A DNA stretch of 36,939 nucleotides, taken from Defluviimonas salinarum (lineage in GTDB: Bacteria > Pseudomonadota > Alphaproteobacteria > Rhodobacterales > Rhodobacteraceae). The DNA is taken from positions 1 to 36,939 of the forward strand of contig NZ_JAPDOG010000033.1 of assembly GCF_026013545.1 (NCBI RefSeq), in the 5' to 3' direction. The notes under the pieces were generated by a model that saw only the letters and a program-made list of their open reading frames with translations, was not told where the DNA came from and did not search any database. The position numbers and the translations under genes were made by a program. Within the stretch, counting starts at the first letter, position 1; each line of letters opens with the position of its first letter. Below, piece by piece: positions 27,257 to 36,939 of the stretch.

Positions 27257-28258
27257 CTAGACCGAGGGGATCGGCGCGTTCCCCTGGACGCGGATCGAGT
27301 TGATCGCCTTGCGGTCCTCCTGCGGTGTCACGCCGAAGGCCTGGATGTAGTGGCGCACCATCGGCGTCGAGCTCGCGTAGCCGACCGACAGCGCGATATC
27401 CGTCATCGTGTCGTTGGAATAGAGCGCGAGTTGGCGCGCCTTCTTCATCCGGAGCATACGGTAGTATTTCAGCGGGCTCTGCCCGGTCGCGCGCTGGAAA
27501 GTCCGGTCGAGCTGGCGCGCCGAGAGCGCCACCGCCTCGGCTACCTCGGCGATCTGGATCGGCTGCTCGACATGCTCGGCGAAAAGCCGGATCGCCTTCG
27601 CCACCGCCTCGGGCAGCATGTCCTCGGTCCGGTCGGTCCGGTGCGTCGGGATCCGCTGGCTCACGTCCTCGCCGCGCACCAGCGGATGCTGGAACCAGCA
27701 GGCGACCTCGGTCATGGTCTCGGCGCCGAGCTCGGCGTCGATGAGCCCCAGCATCAGGTCAAAGACCGCCGCCGCGCCGGCCGCCGTCACCCTGCCCCGG
27801 TCGATGGTGATGACGTTGGCGCTGGCCCGGATCTCGGGGAACTCGGCCTTGAACGCCGCCTCGTAGCACCAGTGCACCGCGCAGGTATGGCCGTCCATCA
27901 GCCCGCTCCGCGCCAGCGGGAAGATCCCGCCGCTGAAACCGCCGATCGCGACCCCGTGCCGCGCGAGCTTCCGCACCGCCGCATTCGCGCTGCGCGGGTT
28001 GTCGAACCGTCCGGCCGGGCCGCTGAGGAAATGCAGCTGGTCGACACCCTCGAGATCGGCGAGCCGCACATCCGGGTCGAAGCCGACCCGCGCGCTCGAC
28101 ACCACCCGCTCGCCGCTCTCGCCCACCACGGTCCAGGAGAACGCCTCGCGCCCGACGATCTCGTTGGCCGCGCGCAAAGGCTCGATCGCCGAGGTCAGGC
28201 AGGCCATCGGGAAGCCGGGGAAGATCAGGAAGCCGAGGTACTTGCTATTTTTTTTCAT
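27257..28258 (-). CDS. GlxA-type AraC-family transcriptional regulator
   Basis: The 333-residue protein starts at ATG 28258 (MKKNSKYLGFLIFPGF); the longer reading upstream is rejected. An N-terminal DJ-1/PfpI-like GATase1 domain (LIFPGFPMACLTSAIEPLRAA, VAIGGFSGGIFPLARSG) is followed by an AraC HTH domain (IAEVAEAVALSARQLDRTF and MTDIALSVGYASSTPMVRHY). This architecture is shared by GbdR, SouR and CdhR, which respond to betaine, sarcosine or carnitine. Its position between mgdABCD and dmmDABC suggests control of methylated-amine genes. The start carries an 8-A run (ATGAAAAAAAATAGC) that is unusual here and could slip. Confidence 0.88.
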   Translation of the reverse strand: MKKNSKYLGFLIFPGFPMACLTSAIEPLRAANEIVGREAFSWTVVGESGERVVSSARVGFDPDVRLADLEGVDQLHFLSGPAGRFDNPRSANAAVRKLARHGVAIGGFSGGIFPLARSGLMDGHTCAVHWCYEAAFKAEFPEIRASANVITIDRGRVTAAGAAAVFDLMLGLIDAELGAETMTEVACWFQHPLVRGEDVSQRIPTHRTDRTEDMLPEAVAKAIRLFAEHVEQPIQIAEVAEAVALSARQLDRTFQRATGQSPLKYYRMLRMKKARQLALYSNDTMTDIALSVGYASSTPMVRHYIQAFGVTPQEDRKAINSIRVQGNAPIPSV

Positions 28259-28279: not shown

Positions 28280-28308
28280 TTGCAGGAATATCTTTCTACC
28301 CCATATAA
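28280..28308 (+). promoter_or_regulatory. Candidate promoter of the XRE-cupin regulator gene
   Basis: TTGCAG (28280-28285), 17 bases and ATATAA (28303-28308) form a good sigma-70-like pair ahead of the GTG at 28383. The spacer contains GAATATCTTTCTA, which resembles half of the shared dmm/mgs motif. The regulator genes are divergent, and their control region is only 124 bases. Confidence 0.5.
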
Positions 28309-28382: not shown

Positions 28383-29042
28383 GTGAACGCTCCGAAGTCG
28401 AAGACGGCTGCCGCCGCCGCCTCGCCCCTGAAGCAGGATCCGCACCGCACCTCCGAGCCGCGCGAGAAGGTGCTCGAAGTGGCGATCGGCCGCGCGGTGC
28501 GCAGTTTCCGGCGCCAGAAGGCGATGACGGTCGCGGAACTGTCGAAGCGCACCGGGCTCTCGATCGGGATGCTGTCGAAGATCGAGAACGGCGTCACCTC
28601 GCCGTCGCTGACGACGCTGCAGACGCTGTCCAATGCGCTCAGCGTGCCGCTCACCGGCTTCTTCCGCCGCTACGAGGAACACCGCGAGGCGATGCATGTG
28701 AAGGCCGGCGAGGCGGTCGAGATGGAGCGCGCGGGCACCCGCGCGGGCCACCAGTACCACCTCCTTGGTCATATCGGCGCCAATGCGAGCGGCGTGATCG
28801 TCGAGCCCTACCTGATCACGCTCACCGAAACCTCGGATGTGTTCCCGACCTTCCAGCACGACGGGATCGAGTTCCTGCACATGCTCGAGGGCGAGGTCGA
28901 GTACCTGCACGGCGACGAGACCTATCTCCTGCAGCCGGGCGACAGCCTGATCTTCGACGCCGACGCGCCGCACGGGCCGGTCGGCTTGAACAAGCTGCCG
29001 GCCCGTTACCTGTCGGTCATCACCTACCCGCAGGCGGACTGA
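28383..29042 (+). CDS. XRE-cupin transcriptional regulator
   Basis: A 219-residue protein starting at GTG 28383 after AAGGAAGAGG. The N-terminal HTH (AVRSFRRQKAMTVAELSKRT, then GLSIGMLSKIENGVTSPSLTT, about 38-78) belongs to the XRE family. The C-terminal double-strand beta-helix cupin (QHDGIEFLHMLEGEVEYLHG, LLQPGDSLIFDADAPHGPVG) is its probable ligand sensor. Regulators of this type often control amine or amino-acid catabolism genes. The gene is divergent from the GlxA-type regulator and convergent with dmmC, ending two bases from its stop. Confidence 0.88.
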   Translation: MNAPKSKTAAAAASPLKQDPHRTSEPREKVLEVAIGRAVRSFRRQKAMTVAELSKRTGLSIGMLSKIENGVTSPSLTTLQTLSNALSVPLTGFFRRYEEHREAMHVKAGEAVEMERAGTRAGHQYHLLGHIGANASGVIVEPYLITLTETSDVFPTFQHDGIEFLHMLEGEVEYLHGDETYLLQPGDSLIFDADAPHGPVGLNKLPARYLSVITYPQAD

Positions 29043-29052
29043 ACTCAGTCCG
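29035..29052. terminator. Palindrome spanning the two convergent stop codons
   Basis: CGGACTGA (29035-29042) and TCAGTCCG (29045-29052) are perfect inverted arms separated by only AC. Both contain the stop codon TGA of the XRE-cupin gene and of dmmC. The two-base gap between stops is remarkable, and the structure could end transcription from both sides, although it lacks a T-run. Confidence 0.45.
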
Positions 29053-30085
29053 GCCAGATCCCCGGCGAGGTCGGCGCGCCGTCGTCGTACTTCGACAGCC
29101 ATTCTACGATCTTCGGCCGGTTGTTGATGAAGCCCTTGTAGGTCGCCAGCTCCACCGGCAGGTCGCGGATCACCCGGTGGAATCGGCGCCCCCATTTCGG
29201 CACCGTCACCAGGTCCTCGAGCCTGATCAGGTAGCAGCGGATCGGGAACACCAGCGCGTTCGAGCGCGGCAGGCGGAACAGCGTCTGCAGCTCGACCCTG
29301 AGATGCATCATCCGGCCGACGTTCTCGGCCGTCAGCTCCTGCTTCATCGCGCCCCACTTGTGGTAGTTCTCGGGGCTGGTGTCGAGGAGCGGGTTGATCG
29401 TCATCGTCCAGTTCAGCCGCCGAGCCGGCGCGCCCTGCTGGATGTTGAGCAGGAACTTCAGCGCGCGCACGAAGACGCCCATCTCATGCGCCTTCGGCAC
29501 CGGGGCATGCCATTCGAAGAAGTTCATGCCGATGTCGAAGTCGAGCGACCAGTCGGCCTGGGTGGTGACCATGCCGGCGTCCATCCACAGGTTGTCGTCG
29601 CGCTGGTCGAGGATCGCGAAATCGCCCTGGGTCTGGCGGGTGATGTATTCCATCGGCCCGTAGGGCAGCGTCGTCTCGTCGAGGAAGGTGAAGGTGTCGT
29701 CGATCCCGAGCGGCCGGTTGATCCAGCGCCAGCGGTCGCCGTCCCGGTGCAGCTCGAAGAGGTCGGGGTATTCCTCCGCCTTCGCGGTCATGATCAGCTC
29801 GACCAGGTCCCAACCCGCCAGCGTCATGTGCGGCAGCGACTGACAGCGCAGCGGATCGTCGGCCAGCACCCGCGCCCGGTCCTTCATCTCGGCGACATAG
29901 TGCTCGTCGACGTCGAAGGTGCGCTCGTAAACGCTGCCCGGCCGGTAGGATTTGTGCGGCTCGAGGTTGACCGAGTACATGTAGCTGTCCTCGGGGAACG
30001 GGAACGGGAACCTTTGCACCGCTTTCGGCGAGTTGCGGAAGGTGAAGTCGCCGTAGAAGGTTTCGTCGTTGAAGTTGATCGTCAT
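29045..30085 (-). CDS. dmmC: Dimethylamine monooxygenase subunit DmmC (heme-dependent oxidative N-demethylase, DUF3445)
   Basis: A 346-residue protein starting at ATG 30085 (MTINFNDETFYGDFTF). The conserved DUF3445 pattern is seen in RCQSLPHMTLAGWDLVELIM, PLGIDDTFTFLDETTLP and LRVELQTLFRLPRSNALVFP. In characterised Dmm systems this is the oxygenase that carries heme and demethylates dimethylamine to methylamine and formaldehyde. It follows dmmB by 9 bases and is the last gene of the dmmDABC order known from Ruegeria and other methylotrophs. The heme ligand cannot be assigned by eye with confidence. Confidence 0.85.
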   Translation of the reverse strand: MTINFNDETFYGDFTFRNSPKAVQRFPFPFPEDSYMYSVNLEPHKSYRPGSVYERTFDVDEHYVAEMKDRARVLADDPLRCQSLPHMTLAGWDLVELIMTAKAEEYPDLFELHRDGDRWRWINRPLGIDDTFTFLDETTLPYGPMEYITRQTQGDFAILDQRDDNLWMDAGMVTTQADWSLDFDIGMNFFEWHAPVPKAHEMGVFVRALKFLLNIQQGAPARRLNWTMTINPLLDTSPENYHKWGAMKQELTAENVGRMMHLRVELQTLFRLPRSNALVFPIRCYLIRLEDLVTVPKWGRRFHRVIRDLPVELATYKGFINNRPKIVEWLSKYDDGAPTSPGIWPD

Positions 30086-30094
30086 CCTCGCCTC

Positions 30095-31060
30095 CTATCG
30101 GTCGAGCACGAGGGTCTTGCCCTCGAACCGCGACACGCATGGCATGATCTTCTTGCCGCTGGATTTCTGGTCGTCGGTCAGCCAGTGGTCGTTGTGCAGG
30201 AACTTGCCGTCATAGCCGATCACGTCGGTCTCGCACTGGCCGCAGGCGCCGCCGCGGCAGAGATAGGGCGCATCGACCCCGGCCTCCTCGATCGCCTCCA
30301 GAAGGCTCTGGTGCTCGCCAACCTTGATCACCTTGTTCGACAGGGCGAGCTTGACCTCGAAGGGCTTGCCCGAGGCCGGGGCGAGGAATTCCTCGTGATG
30401 GACCGCCTCGCGTGGCCAGCCAAGCTCCTCGGCGGTCTTGCGCACCCAGGCGATCATTCCCTTCGGCCCGCAGACATAGAGATGCGTGCCGAGCGGCTGA
30501 CCGTCGAGCAGGCGTTCGAGCTTGATCGCCTCGCCGCGGTCGTCGTGGTAGATGTGCACCCGCGTCGGATGGGTGGCATGCAGCTCGTCAGCATAGGTCG
30601 CGAGTGCCGCGGTGCGCACGGCGTAATGCAGTTCGAAATTGCCGTTCATCGCGGTGAGCTGCTTGATCTGCGCCATGAACGGCGTGATCCCGATGCCGCC
30701 CGCGATCATCAGGTGCTTGCGCGCCCTGAGATCGAGCGAGAAGAGGTTGACCGGGTTGCTCACCACCATCTTCATGCCCTGATGGACCTTGGTGTGCATG
30801 TAGAGCGACCCGCCTCGGCCCGCGTCGTCGCGCCGGACCGAGATGCTGAAGCCGCTGCGATCGGCTGGATCGCTCATCAGCGAATAGGGGTTGAGCCGGG
30901 TGCGGCCGCCGTCCTGCATCTCGACAACGGTGTGCGCGCCGCCGGAAAACGTCGGCATCGGCCCGCCGTCGCTGCGGACGAAGCGGAAGCGGGTGACAAG
31001 CTCGTTCACCGGGGTGACGTCGGCCACGGTGACGTCGATTTTTTCTGTTCCTGCGCTCAT
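30095..31060 (-). CDS. dmmB: Dimethylamine monooxygenase reductase subunit DmmB (PDR/VanB family)
   Basis: A 321-residue flavin reductase with ferredoxin domain, start ATG 31060 overlapping the dmmA stop (ATGA). The flavin-binding motif RLNPYS (55-60) and the NAD-binding GGIGITP (121-127) and YVCGPKGM precede a C-terminal [2Fe-2S] domain with C268-x4-C273-x2-C276 and C308. It would pass electrons from NAD(P)H to the heme oxygenase DmmC. The arrangement FMN/NAD module first, ferredoxin last is that of the phthalate dioxygenase reductase family. Confidence 0.9.
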   Translation of the reverse strand: MSAGTEKIDVTVADVTPVNELVTRFRFVRSDGGPMPTFSGGAHTVVEMQDGGRTRLNPYSLMSDPADRSGFSISVRRDDAGRGGSLYMHTKVHQGMKMVVSNPVNLFSLDLRARKHLMIAGGIGITPFMAQIKQLTAMNGNFELHYAVRTAALATYADELHATHPTRVHIYHDDRGEAIKLERLLDGQPLGTHLYVCGPKGMIAWVRKTAEELGWPREAVHHEEFLAPASGKPFEVKLALSNKVIKVGEHQSLLEAIEEAGVDAPYLCRGGACGQCETDVIGYDGKFLHNDHWLTDDQKSSGKKIMPCVSRFEGKTLVLDR

Positions 31061-31668
31061 CTGAAACGCTCCACCGGTTCGGGAATGTTGCCGGGATCCT
31101 CGGCATCGACGCGCACGCCCTGGAAGGCGGCGAGCCGGCGCGAATAGTGATCGCGGACGAAGAGGTGCAGGCCGCAATGGGAGCAGACGAAGGGATCGGT
31201 GGTCACGTCCTCGGTAATGCCCTTGCAGTGCACGCACTGCATGCGCCGCGCGGTCGAGCCGCGATGCTCGGCCTGGATCGCGCCGTAAGGAATGCCGGCC
31301 TGGGCCGCCTCCTGCATCGCCTGGCCCATCAGGCTCTCGGTGCCGGCGAGATAAACCTGCAGGCCCATATGCGCGCCGAGAAGCGTGCGGCGCAGCCGCG
31401 GCACGGCGGCCTCGTAGGTCGGCCCCGAGTAGAATTGCGCGGGCTTCAGGCCGCGCAGGCGCTCGGTATAAGTGCTGGCGGTCGCCTTGCGGATATGGAT
31501 GACGTGGGCGTGGTCGAAGAAGCCGGACGGCGCCACCTCGGCGAGGGCGAGGATCGCCTCGGCGCCCTCGGCATCGGCGACGAGAAGATGCGCCTTGCCC
31601 GGCCGCGGCTCCAGCCGGCTGTAGACCGGGCGGCTCGCGATCGATGGTGTGATCGTGGTTTCAATCAT
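31057..31668 (-). CDS. dmmA: Dimethylamine monooxygenase subunit DmmA (zinc-ribbon)
   Basis: The 203-residue protein starts at ATG 31668 (MIETTITPSIASRPVY) behind GGGAGGAG; the upstream extension is rejected. The N-terminal part resembles a nucleotide/flavin-type fold (GKAHLLVADAEGAEAI, LQVYLAGTESLMGQAMQ). The C-terminal zinc ribbon has C145-x2-C148 and C162-x2-C165 (QCVHCKG, CSHCGLHLF). It matches the DmmA-like family. It sits between the GcvT-like DmmD and DmmB, as in known dmmDABC operons. Its precise electron-transfer or structural role is not clear from sequence. Confidence 0.85.
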   Translation of the reverse strand: MIETTITPSIASRPVYSRLEPRPGKAHLLVADAEGAEAILALAEVAPSGFFDHAHVIHIRKATASTYTERLRGLKPAQFYSGPTYEAAVPRLRRTLLGAHMGLQVYLAGTESLMGQAMQEAAQAGIPYGAIQAEHRGSTARRMQCVHCKGITEDVTTDPFVCSHCGLHLFVRDHYSRRLAAFQGVRVDAEDPGNIPEPVERFR

Positions 31669-31741: not shown

Positions 31742-32875
31742 TCAGCCCTTGGCCGTCCGGCGCTTCTTCTCAGGGTCGTAGAACGGCATGGAGTGGGCGA
31801 CACAGGGAATCTCCCCGGCGTCGCACTTGACCGTCATCCGCACGCCGTCGACCGCACATTCGACCGGCATCCGCGCGATCGCGATGTTATGCTTGTTGAG
31901 GCTGGAATACATCCCTTGCGTGACCACGCCGACCTGCTTGCCGTCCATCGTCAGCGCCGCACCGTTCTCCGGCACCGTCGTGCCTTCGAGCTTCAGCCCG
32001 TAGATCTTGAACCGCTCCTTGCCCTTCAGCCGGTAATGCTCCTCCGCGCCGCGGAACCCGGTCTTGCCCGGCGAGACGGTGAAGTCGAGCCCGAGTTCCC
32101 AGAGCGTGTCGCCCGGCCCCTCGTTGTCGAACGGATACATCTCCGAGTTGTCGTAGGGGAAGAACAGGAGGTAGCTTTCCGTCCTTAGCAGGTCGAGCGT
32201 GGTGAAGCGGCAGGGGATGATCCCCATCGACGCGCCTTCCTCGAGGATGCGGTCCCAGATCCCCGGCGCGTCCTGGCCGCGGCAGAAGATCTCGTAGCCG
32301 CGCTCGCCGGTATAGCCGGTGCGCGAGATCGTCACCGGCAGGCCGAAGAGCGACGTGTGCATGTGGCTGAAGTAGTTGAGCTGGCGGATGCCCGGCACAT
32401 GCTCCTGCAGGTACTCGACGGCGAGCGGCCCCTGCAGCGACAGGTCGTGGAGATTGTCGTCGAAGCGGATCGAGACATCGCGGCCGGTCGCGGCCATCGT
32501 CAGCTGCTCATGCGCCTGGCCCGAACCGTGCACGACCATCCAGCTGTTCGGTCCCATCCGGTAGATGACGCAGTCGTCGACGAACTTGCCGGCGTCGTTG
32601 AGCATCGCCGCATAGGCCGAGCGGCCCGGCATGATCTTCTCGACATTGCGCGTGGTGGCGCGGTCGATGACATGGCTCGCGGCCGGGCCGGTCAGATGCA
32701 CTTTCTTCAGGCCCGACACATCCATCAGACCCGCCTTGGTGCGGATCGCGAGGTACTCCTTCTCCGGATCGCCGGAATAGGACCAGGCCGTGCCCATTCC
32801 GCTCCAGTCCTCGAGCGCCGAGCCGAGCTTTCGGTGCCGCTCGCCGAGGGTCGAGAATCGCCAAGATGCCGTCAT
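31742..32875 (-). CDS. dmmD: GcvT-like aminomethyltransferase DmmD
   Basis: A 377-residue GcvT/DMGDH-family tetrahydrofolate enzyme starting MTASWRFSTLGERHRKLG. The motifs EYLAIRTKAGLMDVSGLKKV, MLNDAGKFVDDCVIYRM, ISRTGYTGERGYEIF and DLLRTESYLLFFPYDNSEM fit the family; the first segment matches the sugar/amine-demethylating GcvT homologues. In dmm systems DmmD is thought to transfer the released formaldehyde carbon to THF. It leads the dmmDABC operon and is divergent from a permease gene, with a shared motif between. Confidence 0.86.
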   Translation of the reverse strand: MTASWRFSTLGERHRKLGSALEDWSGMGTAWSYSGDPEKEYLAIRTKAGLMDVSGLKKVHLTGPAASHVIDRATTRNVEKIMPGRSAYAAMLNDAGKFVDDCVIYRMGPNSWMVVHGSGQAHEQLTMAATGRDVSIRFDDNLHDLSLQGPLAVEYLQEHVPGIRQLNYFSHMHTSLFGLPVTISRTGYTGERGYEIFCRGQDAPGIWDRILEEGASMGIIPCRFTTLDLLRTESYLLFFPYDNSEMYPFDNEGPGDTLWELGLDFTVSPGKTGFRGAEEHYRLKGKERFKIYGLKLEGTTVPENGAALTMDGKQVGVVTQGMYSSLNKHNIAIARMPVECAVDGVRMTVKCDAGEIPCVAHSMPFYDPEKKRRTAKG

Positions 32876-33347
32876 GCGTAACTCCCTGATGCTGTTCCGC
32901 CGAGTGATGGGCCGGCGGTTCGGATGGATTGATGTTGACAGAAGGTGGGTTTCGAAAGCAACACTTAACTGAATATTATTTTCCTAAGAGGCAACAAATG
33001 CCGGCTTCCGGGCTGAAATCGTTGCTCAATCTCCCCCTCGGCGAGGGTGGGCCGGCGCGTGCGCGTGGCACCGCGCTCCGGGTCCCTGCCCCCGCGGTGT
33101 GCGAAATTGCACTGGGGAAACATGTGCTTGCGGGCGCAATGGCGCGCCGAATCACTTCGCGCCGTCAATGCGGCGCCGCGCCGCAGCCCGTCCCGCCCTC
33201 CGCCCCGGCCCGAGAAACAGCCGGAGCCACCCGCCGCCGAAACAGCGCGAATCGGTTTCGGCCTGCGGGGACCGGACCAGGCCCGGCGATCCGCCGCGGC
33301 CCGCCCCACGAGAAGACCAAAGTCACCCAACAGGACAGGAAAACGCG
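32876..33347. other. Long divergent control region between dmmD and the permease
   Basis: No credible gene lies in this 472-base gap. It holds the AT-rich 21-base motif at 32970-32990, the palindrome TTTCGAAA (32950-32957), a CCCTCGGCGAGGG hairpin near 33035 related to the repeat at 27119, and GTGC-GAAATT-GCAC at 33099-33112. The remainder is GC-rich and weakly structured. The motif lies about 358 bases ahead of the permease start, so the permease mRNA may have a long leader. Confidence 0.55.
32970..32990 (+). promoter_or_regulatory. Shared regulatory motif, copy 1 (dmm/permease)
   Basis: TGAATATT, two variable bases, TTTCCTA, one variable base, then GAG. The copy here matches the one at 36805-36825 in 18 of 21 positions, within a GC-rich genome. 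It is about 95 bases from the dmmD start on the minus strand. A binding site for one of the two regulators in the island is inferred. Confidence 0.6.
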
Positions 33348-34958
33348 ATGACCGACACGATCTATGAAAGCCCCGGCACGGGGGTGAAGGCGGGCGAAGG
33401 CGGCATGCTGTTTCGCTCGATCGGCTGGAAGGACGCTTTCTGGATGGCCTCCGGCGTTCCGGCGCTGGTGCTCTTTTCGATCGGCGGCATCGCCGCGACG
33501 GTCGGCAACCCGTCCTGGGTGATCTGGATGCTCTCGGTGACCTTCGGCTTCATCCAGGCCTTCACCTATGCCGAGATCGCCGGGCTCTTCCCCAACAAAT
33601 CGGGCGGCGCCTCGGTCTATGGCGCGGCCGCCTGGGTGCGCTACTCGAAGATCATCGCGCCGCTGTCGGTCTGGTGCAACTGGCTCGCCTGGACGCCGGT
33701 GCTGGCGATCGGCTCCGGCCTCGCGGCGGGCTACATCCTCAATTCCTTCTTCGGCGCCGACGCCGCGATCAACGCCTGGCAGATCACGCTGGTCGATCTC
33801 GGCTTCGTCAACGAGGGGCTGACGCTGCGGATCAACGCGACCTCGATCATCGGCACGGTGATCCTGCTTGGCGTCTTCGCCGCGCAGCACCACGGTATCT
33901 CGCGCGCCGCCAAGATCCAGACCTTCATCGGCCTCGCGGTGCTGATCCCGCTCCTGATCGTCGGCCTCGTGCCGCTGCTGACCGGTGACGTGCTCAACGC
34001 CAACCTGATGCCGCTCCTGCCGAGCTCGGGCGCCTGGGACACCAATGGCTGGACGCTGTTCCTCGGCGGCCTCTTCATCGCCGCCTGGTCGACCTACGGC
34101 TTCGAGACCGCGGTCTGCTACACCAGCGAGTTCCGCGACCCCAAGACCGACACCTTCCGCTCGATCTTCTTCGCGGGCCTCGTCTGCATCGTGATCTTCT
34201 CGCTCGTGCCGCTCGCCTTCCAGGGCGTGCTCGGGGTCGAGGGCATCCTGCAGCCGGGCATCGTCGACGGCACCGCGGTCGCCGGCGCGATGGCGCACAT
34301 GGTCGGCGGCGGCTCGGCGGTGGCGGCGATCATGGTGGTGATGCTCTGCCTCGCGCTCGTCCTGTCGATCATGACCTCGATGGCGGGCTCCTCGCGCACG
34401 CTCTACCAGGGTTCGGTCGACGGCTGGCTGCCGCGCTACCTCAGCCATGTCAACGAGCACGGCGCGCCGACCAAGGCGATGTGGACCGATCTCGGCTTCA
34501 ACCTCATCCTGCTGATGATGTCGGACTACCTCTTCATCCTCGCCGCCTCGAACGTCTGCTACCTGGTGTTCAACTTCCTCAACCTGCATTCCGGCTGGAT
34601 CCACCGCATCGACAGCGGCCATGTCGAGCGGCCGTGGAAGGCGCCGAACATCCTGCTGTGGCTCGGCGGCATCCTCGCCTTCTTCAACGCCATGCTGATC
34701 GGCGCCGGGGCCAACGTCTGGGGCGAAGGCACGCTGCGCACCGCGATCTTCGCGATCCTGCTGATCGTCCCGGTCTTCGCCTGGCGGCACTGGGTCATCG
34801 ACAAGGGCAAGTTCCCGCACGAGATGCTCGAGGACCTGACCGTCGGCGGCGTCGACCCCGACCACGGCAAGCGCAAGGCGGGGTTCCTGCCCTACCTCAC
34901 AATCGCGGCGGGCATTGCTGTCGTCGTGATCGCCAACCAGATGTTCCAGCTGTCGTAA
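33348..34958 (+). CDS. APC-superfamily permease (amine or amino acid transporter)
   Basis: A 536-residue membrane protein, start ATG 33348 after CAGGACAGGA. About 12 membrane helices are visible. Family features include AYAEIAG-like FTYAEIAGLFPNKSGGASVYG near residues 68-88 and the WSTYGFETAVCYTSEFRDPK loop. APC permeases move amino acids, polyamines or other amines. Location beside dmmDABC and amt suggests uptake of a methylated amine or related amino compound. No terminator separates it from the Amt gene except the stem at 34976. Confidence 0.85.
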   Translation: MTDTIYESPGTGVKAGEGGMLFRSIGWKDAFWMASGVPALVLFSIGGIAATVGNPSWVIWMLSVTFGFIQAFTYAEIAGLFPNKSGGASVYGAAAWVRYSKIIAPLSVWCNWLAWTPVLAIGSGLAAGYILNSFFGADAAINAWQITLVDLGFVNEGLTLRINATSIIGTVILLGVFAAQHHGISRAAKIQTFIGLAVLIPLLIVGLVPLLTGDVLNANLMPLLPSSGAWDTNGWTLFLGGLFIAAWSTYGFETAVCYTSEFRDPKTDTFRSIFFAGLVCIVIFSLVPLAFQGVLGVEGILQPGIVDGTAVAGAMAHMVGGGSAVAAIMVVMLCLALVLSIMTSMAGSSRTLYQGSVDGWLPRYLSHVNEHGAPTKAMWTDLGFNLILLMMSDYLFILAASNVCYLVFNFLNLHSGWIHRIDSGHVERPWKAPNILLWLGGILAFFNAMLIGAGANVWGEGTLRTAIFAILLIVPVFAWRHWVIDKGKFPHEMLEDLTVGGVDPDHGKRKAGFLPYLTIAAGIAVVVIANQMFQLS

Positions 34959-34975
34959 GCCAGCCGAGACAACGG

Positions 34976-35005
34976 GCCCGGGCGGTATTTCGCCCGGGCT
35001 TTTTT
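34976..35005 (+). terminator. Terminator of the permease gene
   Basis: GCCCGGGCG (34976-34984), loop GTATTT and CGCCCGGGC (34991-34999) make a perfect 9-pair stem followed by TTTTTT. It stands 18 bases after the permease stop and is the clearest intrinsic terminator in the window. Confidence 0.88.
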
Positions 35006-35061
35006 GTTAAGAAAGTTTCCCTAAATCCCAGTCACTTCGGCCGCTCCGACCGTCCAACAGT

Positions 35062-35131
35062 CGAAATTTCGTTGACTCACGCGATCCGAATAGTTTCCCA
35101 TTGTGAAATTACTTTCACTGCGAGGTAAAAT
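35062..35131 (+). promoter_or_regulatory. Amt promoter region with palindromic operator
   Basis: The perfect palindromes CGAAATTTCG (35062-35071) and GTGAAATTACTTTCAC (35103-35118) precede the Amt gene. TTGTGA (35101-35106) and TAAAAT (35126-35131), 19 bases apart, may be promoter boxes with the second palindrome lying between them, a typical repressor position. GAATAGTTTCCCATTG (35088-35103) resembles a shortened copy of the motif at 36805. Confidence 0.45.
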
Positions 35132-35154
35132 CTCGCCAATCAGGGAGACGCGAA

Positions 35155-36525
35155 GTGAACGGTAATCTCGAAGCACTATCGACCGTCTTTACCGAGTTCT
35201 ACTACTGGGTGACGGTCGTCTTCATGTTCCTGATCCATGTCGGCTTCTGCATGTACGAAGTCGGCGCGAGCCGGCGCAGGAACCACATGCACACATTGAT
35301 GAAGAACGTCATGATCATCCCTCTGGTCACCGTGACGTTCTTCTTCTTCGGCTGGTGGATCTACTGGGCCTTCCCGGATTTCCCCTTCTTCGGCGGCCTC
35401 AACCACGAGATGGGCGACGCCAACCTGCCCTGGTCCAAGACGATGGCCACCAATCTCGGCGACCGGATCACCGGCGTCTTCTGGGCGGCGTTCCTGCTGT
35501 TCTCCTGGACCGCCGCCTCGATCGTCTCGGGCGCGGTGATCGAGCGCATCCGATCGAGCGCGCTCTGGGTCCACGCGGTGATGATCGGGTCGGTCTGGTG
35601 GATCATCGACGCCGCCTGGGGCTGGCACTATGGCGGCTGGATGGTGCGGATCCTCGGCTACCATGACGCCTATGCGTCGGGCGTGATCCATGCGATCGCC
35701 GGCGGCTACGCGCTCGGCGTGATCATGGTGCTCGGGCCGCGGCTCGGCAAATTCGCCGCCGACGGGACGCCGCGCGACATCCCCCCGCACAATCCGTGGA
35801 TGCTGACCATCGGCCTGTTCCTGATCTACACCGGCTTCTGGGGCTTCTACGCGGCCTGCAACGTGCCCGTGATCTCGCCCGAGGCGATCGGCGGCCAGAT
35901 CACCGGCACCACCTGGACCGCGACCAACATCTACCTCGCGCCGACGACGCTCTCGGCCATCACCTTCAACTTCCTGATGTCGCTCTCGGGCGGGCTGATG
36001 GCGGCTTACGTGGTGTCGAAGGGCGATGCGTTTTGGACGTTCTCGGGCGGCCTCGCCGGGGTGATCACCGCATCCGCCGGCAACGATCTCTACCACCCGG
36101 TCCAGGCGATGCTGGTCGGCGCCGTCGGGGTCGTGATCGTCTACCACCTGCACTACTGGGTCGAACGCCGCCTCAAGCTCGACGACGCGGTCGGCGCGGT
36201 CGCGGTGCATGGCTATTCCGGCGTCATCGGCCTGATCATCGCCGGCTTCCTGCTCTGGGGCGCCCCGTCGTCGCCGTTTGAGGGCTACGCGACGATCAAC
36301 CCGATCGGACAGACGGCCGGTGCGGTGATCATGTTCCTCGTCCTCGGCTTCGTGCCGGGCTGGGCTCTCGCCAGGGTCCAGGCCGCGGTCGGCGTGCTCA
36401 GGATCCCCGAAGAGGTCGAACTCCAGGGCCTCGATTACGCCGAGCACCATGCCTACGAAGACGCCAAGGCGGCGATCATCGAAGCCGACAAGGCATATCT
36501 GGCCACCAACCTCAAAGCCTCGTGA
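35155..36525 (+). CDS. Amt-family ammonium/methylammonium transporter, divergent
   Basis: A 456-residue protein with GTG start at 35155 after CAGGGAGA. About 11 membrane helices are seen. The twin histidines of Amt channels are present (H179 in SGVIHAIAG, H352 in VAVHGYSG), and D171 matches the conserved substrate-site Asp region. The usual central loop and the C-terminal GlnK-interacting tail are altered (ends EADKAYLATNLKAS), so control by GlnK is uncertain. It lies in the methylated-amine island and would import or recapture ammonium or methylammonium. Confidence 0.85.
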   Translation: MNGNLEALSTVFTEFYYWVTVVFMFLIHVGFCMYEVGASRRRNHMHTLMKNVMIIPLVTVTFFFFGWWIYWAFPDFPFFGGLNHEMGDANLPWSKTMATNLGDRITGVFWAAFLLFSWTAASIVSGAVIERIRSSALWVHAVMIGSVWWIIDAAWGWHYGGWMVRILGYHDAYASGVIHAIAGGYALGVIMVLGPRLGKFAADGTPRDIPPHNPWMLTIGLFLIYTGFWGFYAACNVPVISPEAIGGQITGTTWTATNIYLAPTTLSAITFNFLMSLSGGLMAAYVVSKGDAFWTFSGGLAGVITASAGNDLYHPVQAMLVGAVGVVIVYHLHYWVERRLKLDDAVGAVAVHGYSGVIGLIIAGFLLWGAPSSPFEGYATINPIGQTAGAVIMFLVLGFVPGWALARVQAAVGVLRIPEEVELQGLDYAEHHAYEDAKAAIIEADKAYLATNLKAS

Positions 36526-36541
36526 CGAAGGGAGAACCATC

Positions 36542-36757
36542 ATGTCAACGATCGGATACGAGACCTGGGCCGTCGATCTTGCCGAAGTGGGCGCGGTCTA
36601 TCCGTTCCAGGGCCACGAGTTCCTGATGACGCTGCTCGGCGTCGCCTTCTGGATCGGCTGGCACCGGATCCAGTTCGTCCGGGAAGGCCGCCACCTCGAC
36701 AAGGCGCGCCATATCGGGGATCCCGACAAGATCACCAAGGCGCTCGAACGTTACTGA
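36542..36757 (+). CDS. Small membrane protein behind amt (71 aa)
   Basis: ATG at 36542 follows GGGAGAA. The product starts MSTIGYETWAVDLAEVG and has one hydrophobic helix (FLMTLLGVAFWIGWHRIQFV, about 27-46), then a charged tail with HIGDPDKITKALERY. No known family is recognised. It is 16 bases from the amt stop and shares its transcript, and a hairpin follows it, so it is probably a partner of the Amt channel or of the amine pathway. Confidence 0.7.
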   Translation: MSTIGYETWAVDLAEVGAVYPFQGHEFLMTLLGVAFWIGWHRIQFVREGRHLDKARHIGDPDKITKALERY

Positions 36758-36767
36758 CACGCCGCGC

Positions 36768-36800
36768 ACCCGGGCGAGTCGGATCTCGCCCGGGTTGCCC
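36768..36800 (+). terminator. Hairpin after the amt-small protein unit
   Basis: ACCCGGGCGAG (36768-36778), loop TCGGAT and CTCGCCCGGGT (36785-36795) form an 11-pair stem 10 bases after the stop of the small gene. Only two T follow, so termination may be partial. Confidence 0.6.
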
Positions 36801-36804
36801 AATA

Positions 36805-36825
36805 TGAATATTTGTTTCCTATGAG
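36805..36825 (+). promoter_or_regulatory. Shared regulatory motif, copy 2 (mgsA)
   Basis: The 21-base motif (TGAATATT, TG, TTTCCTA, T, GAG) ends directly against a -35-like box, as an activator site of class II promoters would. It matches the dmm/permease copy at 32970-32990 in 18 of 21 positions. Confidence 0.6.
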
Positions 36826-36854
36826 TTGATGTGTGTATGGAATGGTGCTAGCGT
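36826..36854 (+). promoter_or_regulatory. Candidate promoter of mgsA
   Basis: TTGATG (36826-36831), a 17-base spacer and TAGCGT (36849-36854) form a plausible sigma-70 promoter 29 bases ahead of the start codon, with the shared motif lying just upstream. Confidence 0.5.
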
Positions 36855-36883
36855 TTTGGGGAGACGATCCAAGGGAGTCGAAG

Positions 36884-36939
36884 ATGTGCGGGATTGTGGG
36901 ACTGTTTTTGAAGGACCGGTCGCTGGAGCCTCGGCTCGG
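36884..36939 (+). CDS. mgsA: Class II glutamine amidotransferase, start only (probable MgsA/GlxB)
   Basis: The window ends after 18 codons (MCGIVGLFLKDRSLEPRL), start ATG 36884 after AAGGGAG. Cys2 after the initiator Met, followed by GIVGLF, is the N-terminal nucleophile pattern of class II glutamine amidotransferases. In methylotrophs MgsA (GlxB-like) is one of the three subunits (MgsABC) of N-methylglutamate synthase. Context next to mgd and dmm genes supports this; the rest of the gene is outside the window. Confidence 0.65.
   Translation, partial: MCGIVGLFLKDRSLEPRL

Follow-up and report, generated by a model that had tools for sequence, protein, structure and literature searches.

Why do the genes for dimethylamine oxidation and those for methylamine assimilation share almost the same 21 bases in their control regions? 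The question is raised by a 36,939-nucleotide contig of Defluviimonas salinarum (NZ_JAPDOG010000033.1, referred to here in its full length as the window), in which one such sequence lies upstream of dmmD, the first gene of the dmmDABC operon, and the other upstream of mgsA. The window also holds two candidate regulators encoded as a divergent pair, an XRE-cupin gene and a GlxA/GbdR-type AraC gene. Comparative sequence evidence suggests that the two 21-mers are operators of one methylated-amine regulon, with the XRE-cupin protein (28383-29042) as the most likely binder (probability roughly 0.78).

A conserved element upstream of dmmD and mgsA

The sequences TGAATATTATTTTCCTAAGAG (32970-32990) and TGAATATTTGTTTCCTATGAG (36805-36825) are identical at 18 of 21 bases. 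Searching for their common pattern with up to three mismatches returned these two matches in the window and none in 100 dinucleotide-preserving shuffles; the same two were the only matches in the whole 5,016,967-base genome, where a reversed control pattern gave 0. This bears out the claim of the first-pass annotation, made from the DNA alone, that the agreement is far from chance.

Relative to their own genes the 21-mers are inversely oriented, dmmD running on the minus strand from 32875 and mgsA on the plus strand from 36884. They match in this way because they represent the pseudo-palindromic (second) half of a longer element, approximately TTNCCTGACAGGAAAAWWWKTTKC, of which they are the inner part and which lies directly upstream of a conserved -35/-10 promoter. 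The element spans about 24-26 bp and contains three half-sites, TTNCC, GGNAA and TTKC, that form two overlapping palindromes. These half-sites stand in identical register at dmmD and mgsA, with the element 2 bases closer to the -35 at mgsA; at both genes it ends 5-7 bp before the -35, a spacing that is fixed among the aligned loci. The corresponding features of the window are as follows.

32971..32994, minus strand: putative operator of dmmDABC, TTGCCTCTTAGGAAAATAATATTC; pattern match with 1 mismatch, scoring 26.8 bits when the window is left out of matrix training; alignable with 78 loci from relatives; listed as containing the first 21-mer (32970-32990)
32956..32961, minus strand: predicted -35 of dmmD, TTGCTT; its distance from the operator equals that of the TTGMTT block conserved in aligned relatives
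32933..32938, minus strand: predicted -10 of dmmD, TCAACA; 17 bp after the -35, at the position of the relatives' CARACT; a poor consensus match
36795..36818, plus strand: putative operator of mgsA, TTGCCCAATATGAATATTTGTTTC; pattern match with 1 mismatch, 26.4 bits; overlaps the second 21-mer (36805-36825)
36826..36831, plus strand: predicted -35 of mgsA, TTGATG; aligned with the TTGA block in 47 mgsA loci
36849..36854, plus strand: predicted -10 of mgsA, TAGCGT, preceded by TGC; 17 bp after the -35; TGCTAGC is conserved among relatives
36884..36939, plus strand: start of mgsA, cut by the contig end; the MCGIVGLF start is common to relatives

In the dmmD orientation, the columns of 78 aligned loci (39 non-redundant) give the consensus TT-N-CCTG-A-CAGG-AAA-WWWN-TTGCAC, followed by a -35 of TTGMTTT and a -10 of CARACT. 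The mgsA consensus, from 47 aligned loci (37 non-redundant, with a few rows misaligned), is TTGCC-N-ACAGG-AAAAWWWG-TTTCTT-NNCAG, then TTGA at -35 and an extended -10, TGCTAGC. Among the dmmD upstream regions of 100 relatives and the window (90 of the 101 distinct), 81 match the consensus at 21 or more of 38 positions in their best ungapped match, and shuffled sequences reach at most 20.

Two other interpretations of these blocks were dropped. A sigma-54 reading of the TTGCAC...TTGMTT block had unfit spacing, as judged by eye. The opposite orientation of the 21-mers had prompted comparison with a MarA-like class I/class II AraC box; the whole elements, however, align in the same orientation and register.

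Occurrence before methylated-amine genes

The element is neither common genome-wide, pattern searches of the genome giving few places, nor absent before orthologous genes, since it precedes dmmD, mgsA, amt and permease genes in many genomes. A looser pattern (up to 2 mismatches) found 7 places in the D. salinarum genome, while the reversed control gave 0; the places are dmmD and mgsA, two on contig C9 (another copy of mgsA and an operon with an amino-acid-permease-type gene), and three without an evident link. Within the window, the matrix trained without it scores the best match outside the control regions discussed here at 6.4 bits, and it gives 12.9 bits in the interval separating the AraC-type and XRE genes and 13.2 bits at their start.

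Shortened versions of the motif, reported by the first-pass annotation before amt and between the regulator genes, are indeed present there, but they are weaker and partly misplaced, and the 21-mer falls short of the full conserved element. The version placed at 35088 lies inside a lower-scoring site that is better bounded at 35092-35129; the one given at 28287 starts at 28286; a third, at 35015, falls in a match of 11.0 bits.

35092..35129, both strands, two overlapping registers: weaker site before amt; 19.3 and 17.2 bits; without an assigned -35 or -10
34995..35022, plus strand: marginal match downstream of the permease gene; 11.0 bits
28274..28301, plus strand: marginal match between the divergent AraC-type and XRE genes; 12.9 bits; possibly serves self-control of the regulators

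Across relatives we counted elements of at least 14 bits within 250 bp in distinct upstream regions, with sites between divergent genes counted for both. They precede mgsA in 43/43 and dmmD in 82/89 regions, two counts with some circularity, since the matrix was trained on sites of this kind. The element is also found before amt1 (10/11), amt2 (10/16), permease genes (47/59), xre (12/40) and tmaR (11/78). Before tdm it occurs in 25 of 48 cases, scored over a wider stretch from an estimated start and with duplicates included. Only 3 of 316 distinct regions before internal operon genes (dmmA, B, C, soxA and amtX) carry it, and 1.3% of 4,959 control windows reach the threshold. Some loci had been entered twice by two routes, and distinct regions were recounted except for the tdm and soxB-type counts and the amt and xre position counts. 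The combined matrix excludes both window sites, and 6 of the 31 distinct rows in its mgsA training set score 11 or less and are evidently misaligned. In the window the permease gene has a sole nearby site, the dmmD operator, more than 350 bp upstream. The comparison lends support to the earlier proposal of a single regulon for methylated amines, and many bacteria seem to switch the pathway as a whole.

The element tracks the XRE-cupin gene

Which of the two regulators reads the element? Both had been put forward by the first-pass annotation; we find that the motif follows the XRE-cupin gene and does not follow the close GlxA/AraC-type protein, which resembles TmaR, the AraC-type regulator of Ruegeria pomeroyi.

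28383..29042, plus strand: XRE-cupin regulator gene; HTH_3 and Cupin_2; orthologue in 50/50 dmm-bearing genomes
27257..28258, minus strand: AraC-family regulator gene, GlxA/GbdR type; HTH_18 (PF12833) and PF00165; GbdR model below cut-off

The XRE-cupin protein combines an N-terminal helix-turn-helix (PF01381 HTH_3, E 5.3e-13, residues 40-92) with a C-terminal cupin domain (PF07883 Cupin_2, E 1.3e-12, residues 153-212), and 10 of the 11 positions of its recognition helix (residues 60-70) are at least 96% conserved in 71 loci. The AraC-type gene sits between the dmm genes and soxB/soxA-type genes and is, by its domains and gene neighborhood, likely the TmaR orthologue.

The 50 dmm-bearing genomes, chosen from 80 loci, all contain an XRE orthologue (best match 54-81% identity); 34 have a close TmaR, and among the 16 that do not, 12 carry the motif before dmmD. 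We then compared gene occurrence in 394 genomes of the family (393 genera), which are drafts, with orthology assigned by identity thresholds, XRE matches accepted at E up to 1e-75 and ten mgsA matches of 53-57% identity excluded. Here XRE and mgsA occur together in 105 genomes, XRE alone in 6, mgsA alone in 9 and neither in 274 (15 discordant), and the corresponding counts for TmaR are 47 genomes with both, 14 with TmaR alone and 67 with mgsA alone. At least 49 of the genomes with both XRE and mgsA have xre as the immediate same-strand neighbor upstream of mgsA, 87-560 bp away.

A non-circular test is provided by a matrix built from dmmD sites only (including that of the window) and applied to mgsA promoters. 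Among 103 genomes it detects the motif in 91 of 92 with XRE and in 2 of 11 without (Fisher p 2e-10, kinship ignored); 3.9% of 2,060 shuffled mgsA promoters reach the threshold. Motif presence in the XRE-bearing genomes does not depend on a close TmaR (30/30 with, 61/62 without). The 103 genomes derive from 124 with an mgsA match, 21 having been left out (one of them, G356, cut at the start), and the D. salinarum entry (G000) represents the contig C9 copy, not that of the window. Seven genomes were regrouped as XRE-bearing after the motif result had been seen; before this, the motif was present in 84/85 XRE-bearing genomes and 9/18 others. Ten mgsA matches of 53-57% identity had initially been treated as paralogues, and 7 of these carry the motif, which led to a looser XRE search. 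That search revealed a diverged XRE (50-57%) near mgsA in 6 of the 7, which were then counted as XRE-bearing, and none in the seventh, G301; in the 3 motif-less paralogue-like genomes it gave no XRE match above 42%. Another genome, G236, was moved on the basis of a 71% partial match.

Because the motif tracks the XRE gene and not a close TmaR, we regard the XRE-cupin protein as the most likely reader. A palindromic operator near the protein's own targets, as is typical of XRE-cupins, is evident in the column counts, and binding by the window protein would be in keeping with this.

A separate observation concerns the distribution of AraC-type genes. Mesorhizobium loci L078-L085, L087 and L088 encode a distant AraC homologue (28-30%) on the dmm contig and keep the operator before dmmD; L083 and L085 additionally have a close (76%) TmaR. 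Many relatives of a Leisingera genome (G456) have two TmaR-type genes, with about 58% and 50% identity to that of the window.

Proposed mechanism and alternatives

We envisage that one or two XRE-cupin dimers bind at about -41 to -68, that the cupin domain senses a metabolite, and that the protein then helps RNA polymerase to start transcription. The targets would be dmmDABC (dimethylamine oxidation), mgs (incorporation of methylamine nitrogen into N-methylglutamate) and amt, the last to a lesser degree here. The position of the operator upstream of the -35 suggests activation at dmmD and mgsA, with which the weakness of the -10 boxes is also consistent. A broader proposal, about as likely as not, is that the XRE-cupin protein is an activator acting on a three-half-site operator placed at constant spacing from the -35, and a wider master regulator of methylamine assimilation in Rhodobacteraceae, Rhizobiales and the organisms behind single Kiloniella and gammaproteobacterial contigs, with TmaR forming a second layer in only part of these bacteria.

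The motif might instead be the binding site of TmaR, the pathway activator in Ruegeria. The DNA-binding domain of TmaR binds the tmm, tdm, dmm, gmaS-mgs, mgd and tmaR promoters, and the protein activates all but tmm (PMC13390433). The motif likewise precedes dmm, mgs and often tdm, and the likely TmaR gene adjoins xre in the window. Against this stand the 61 of 62 XRE-bearing genomes that have the motif before mgsA and no close TmaR. Moreover, the region upstream of tmaR, the tightest TmaR target in Ruegeria, contains the site in 7 of 15 loci with a divergent adjacent xre, but in only one of the 16 loci where xre is elsewhere and one of the 9 that lack it (duplicates included). The mgd-type soxB genes, unlike what the TmaR target list would lead one to expect, seldom have it (8/53 at 13 bits or more, duplicates included), and the element has the symmetry of a palindrome, not of a direct repeat. 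We therefore consider TmaR an unlikely reader. An alternative that accepts the XRE-cupin protein as reader makes it a repressor, released by an amine-derived inducer. This would agree with the Pseudomonas XRE-cupins, but the dmmD and mgsA sites lie wholly upstream of the -35 at a fixed distance and are followed by weak -10 boxes, which activation suits better; repression thus seems somewhat unlikely. That the match arose by chance, or is left over from a recent duplication of mgs DNA, can practically be dismissed. The genome does contain duplicated mgs DNA, the window end and contig C9 sharing 116 identical bases; the identical stretch, however, starts at 36824, downstream of almost the whole motif, shuffles give no match, and the motif recurs before orthologues in many genera, which already refutes both explanations.

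Several observations weigh against activation by the XRE-cupin protein as the common mechanism. Binding to these promoters has been demonstrated in R. pomeroyi for TmaR and not for XRE (PMC13390433). More distant AraC homologues (26-37%) were present in 17 of the 19 genomes examined, and a reader among these retains a small probability. Two genomes without XRE, G192 and G301, score above the threshold; their promoters are 28-29% GC, and 1.0% of shuffles reach the score of the former and 7.7% that of the latter. There is no site within 250 bp in 7 of the 89 dmmD regions, and several of these genomes (e.g., L054 and L089-L093) carry XRE and have either the site at a distance of some 200 bp or more or another conserved block. 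Finally, the Pseudomonas proteins are described as inhibitors (PMC7901475), and repression would suit both the amt sites that lie 40-50 bp from the start codon and the xre sites, which apparently fall within the xre promoter.

Relation to known systems

Methylated amines make up an important share of marine dissolved organic nitrogen, and TmaR (SPO1584) is essential for growth of R. pomeroyi on all of them (PMC13390433, 2026). The TmaR regulon of strain DSS-3 concerns the same pathway and overlapping promoters (dmm, gmaS-mgs, tdm), and the window likely includes tmaR. The regulon proposed here differs in that its probable reader belongs to another family and its element persists without a close TmaR, being mostly absent before tmaR and mgd-type genes. 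Both regulators may act on the same promoters, which would be the simplest way to join the TmaR data with ours. The word "motif" is absent from the main text of PMC13390433. The Pseudomonas XRE-cupins PsdR, PauR and ErfA (PMC7901475) share the XRE helix-turn-helix and cupin architecture, a palindromic operator and few, related targets near their own gene. They are set apart, by their description, as inhibitors with quite different consensus sequences, whereas the targets here are methylamine genes, with a site placement suggestive of activation.

The dmmDABC genes were defined in PMC5520151, and glxA and XRE genes recur in Rhodobacteraceae methylamine clusters (PMC7574528). From its context, the XRE gene of those clusters is probably the same as that of the window; the accessible sections note only its co-occurrence, without an operator, regulon or function. 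The open-licence literature we searched yielded no paper assigning this operator or a regulon to the XRE gene, and the accessible sections of PMC8292978, PMC12565409 and PMC5023235 contain nothing on the operator. A defined operator with a candidate regulator would permit regulon prediction in bacteria without TmaR and makes direct tests possible of how dimethylamine oxidation, methylamine assimilation and uptake are switched jointly. The TmaR inducer is described as an unidentified methylamine catabolite (PMC13390433); a cupin-type sensor acting at those promoters might account in part for what is being sensed.

Neighboring genes and further sites

The remaining genes of the region are listed below; for the small gene between amt and mgsA, searches with domain and family models gave no family match.

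31742..32875, minus strand: dmmD, GcvT-domain protein, first in dmmDABC; PF01571/PF08669; relatives at 78-89% identity in the same gene order
31057..31668, minus strand: dmmA; NF041259 above cut-off
30095..31060, minus strand: second dmm subunit gene, ferredoxin-reductase type; Fer2, NAD_binding_1 and DmmA-like_N domains
29045..30085, minus strand: third dmm subunit gene, heme-dependent oxidative N-demethylase type; PF11927
33348..34958, plus strand: permease gene, TMAO-permease family; NF053774 above cut-off
35155..36525, plus strand: amt-type transporter gene; PF00909
36542..36757, plus strand: small conserved gene between amt and mgsA; homologues of 44-75% identity beside amt in relatives

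Upstream of dmmD in L039, L047, L054, L089-L093 and L122 we noticed another conserved block, approximately ATTCTTCGC, within about 200 bp, with the operator mostly farther upstream; it is possibly a leader element or another site.

The last 116 bases of the window (36824-36939) are identical to the second mgs locus, on contig C9 (L283; mgsA at L283:9026). Two mgs copies, or else a collapsed repeat, are thus probably present in the genome, differing in their upstream halves and each having an operator of its own. Another operator-like site (L283:5463-5486; C9:15962-15985), upstream of the mgs operon of C9, stands before small reading frames for membrane proteins and a gene of the amino-acid-permease type, which could form an uptake operon belonging to the regulon. 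A further 2-mismatch match to the loose pattern in this genome (G000 C41:17984-18007; L271), flanked by an aminotransferase-like gene and a divergent gene for an IclR-type regulator, is probably a chance occurrence or another regulator's site.

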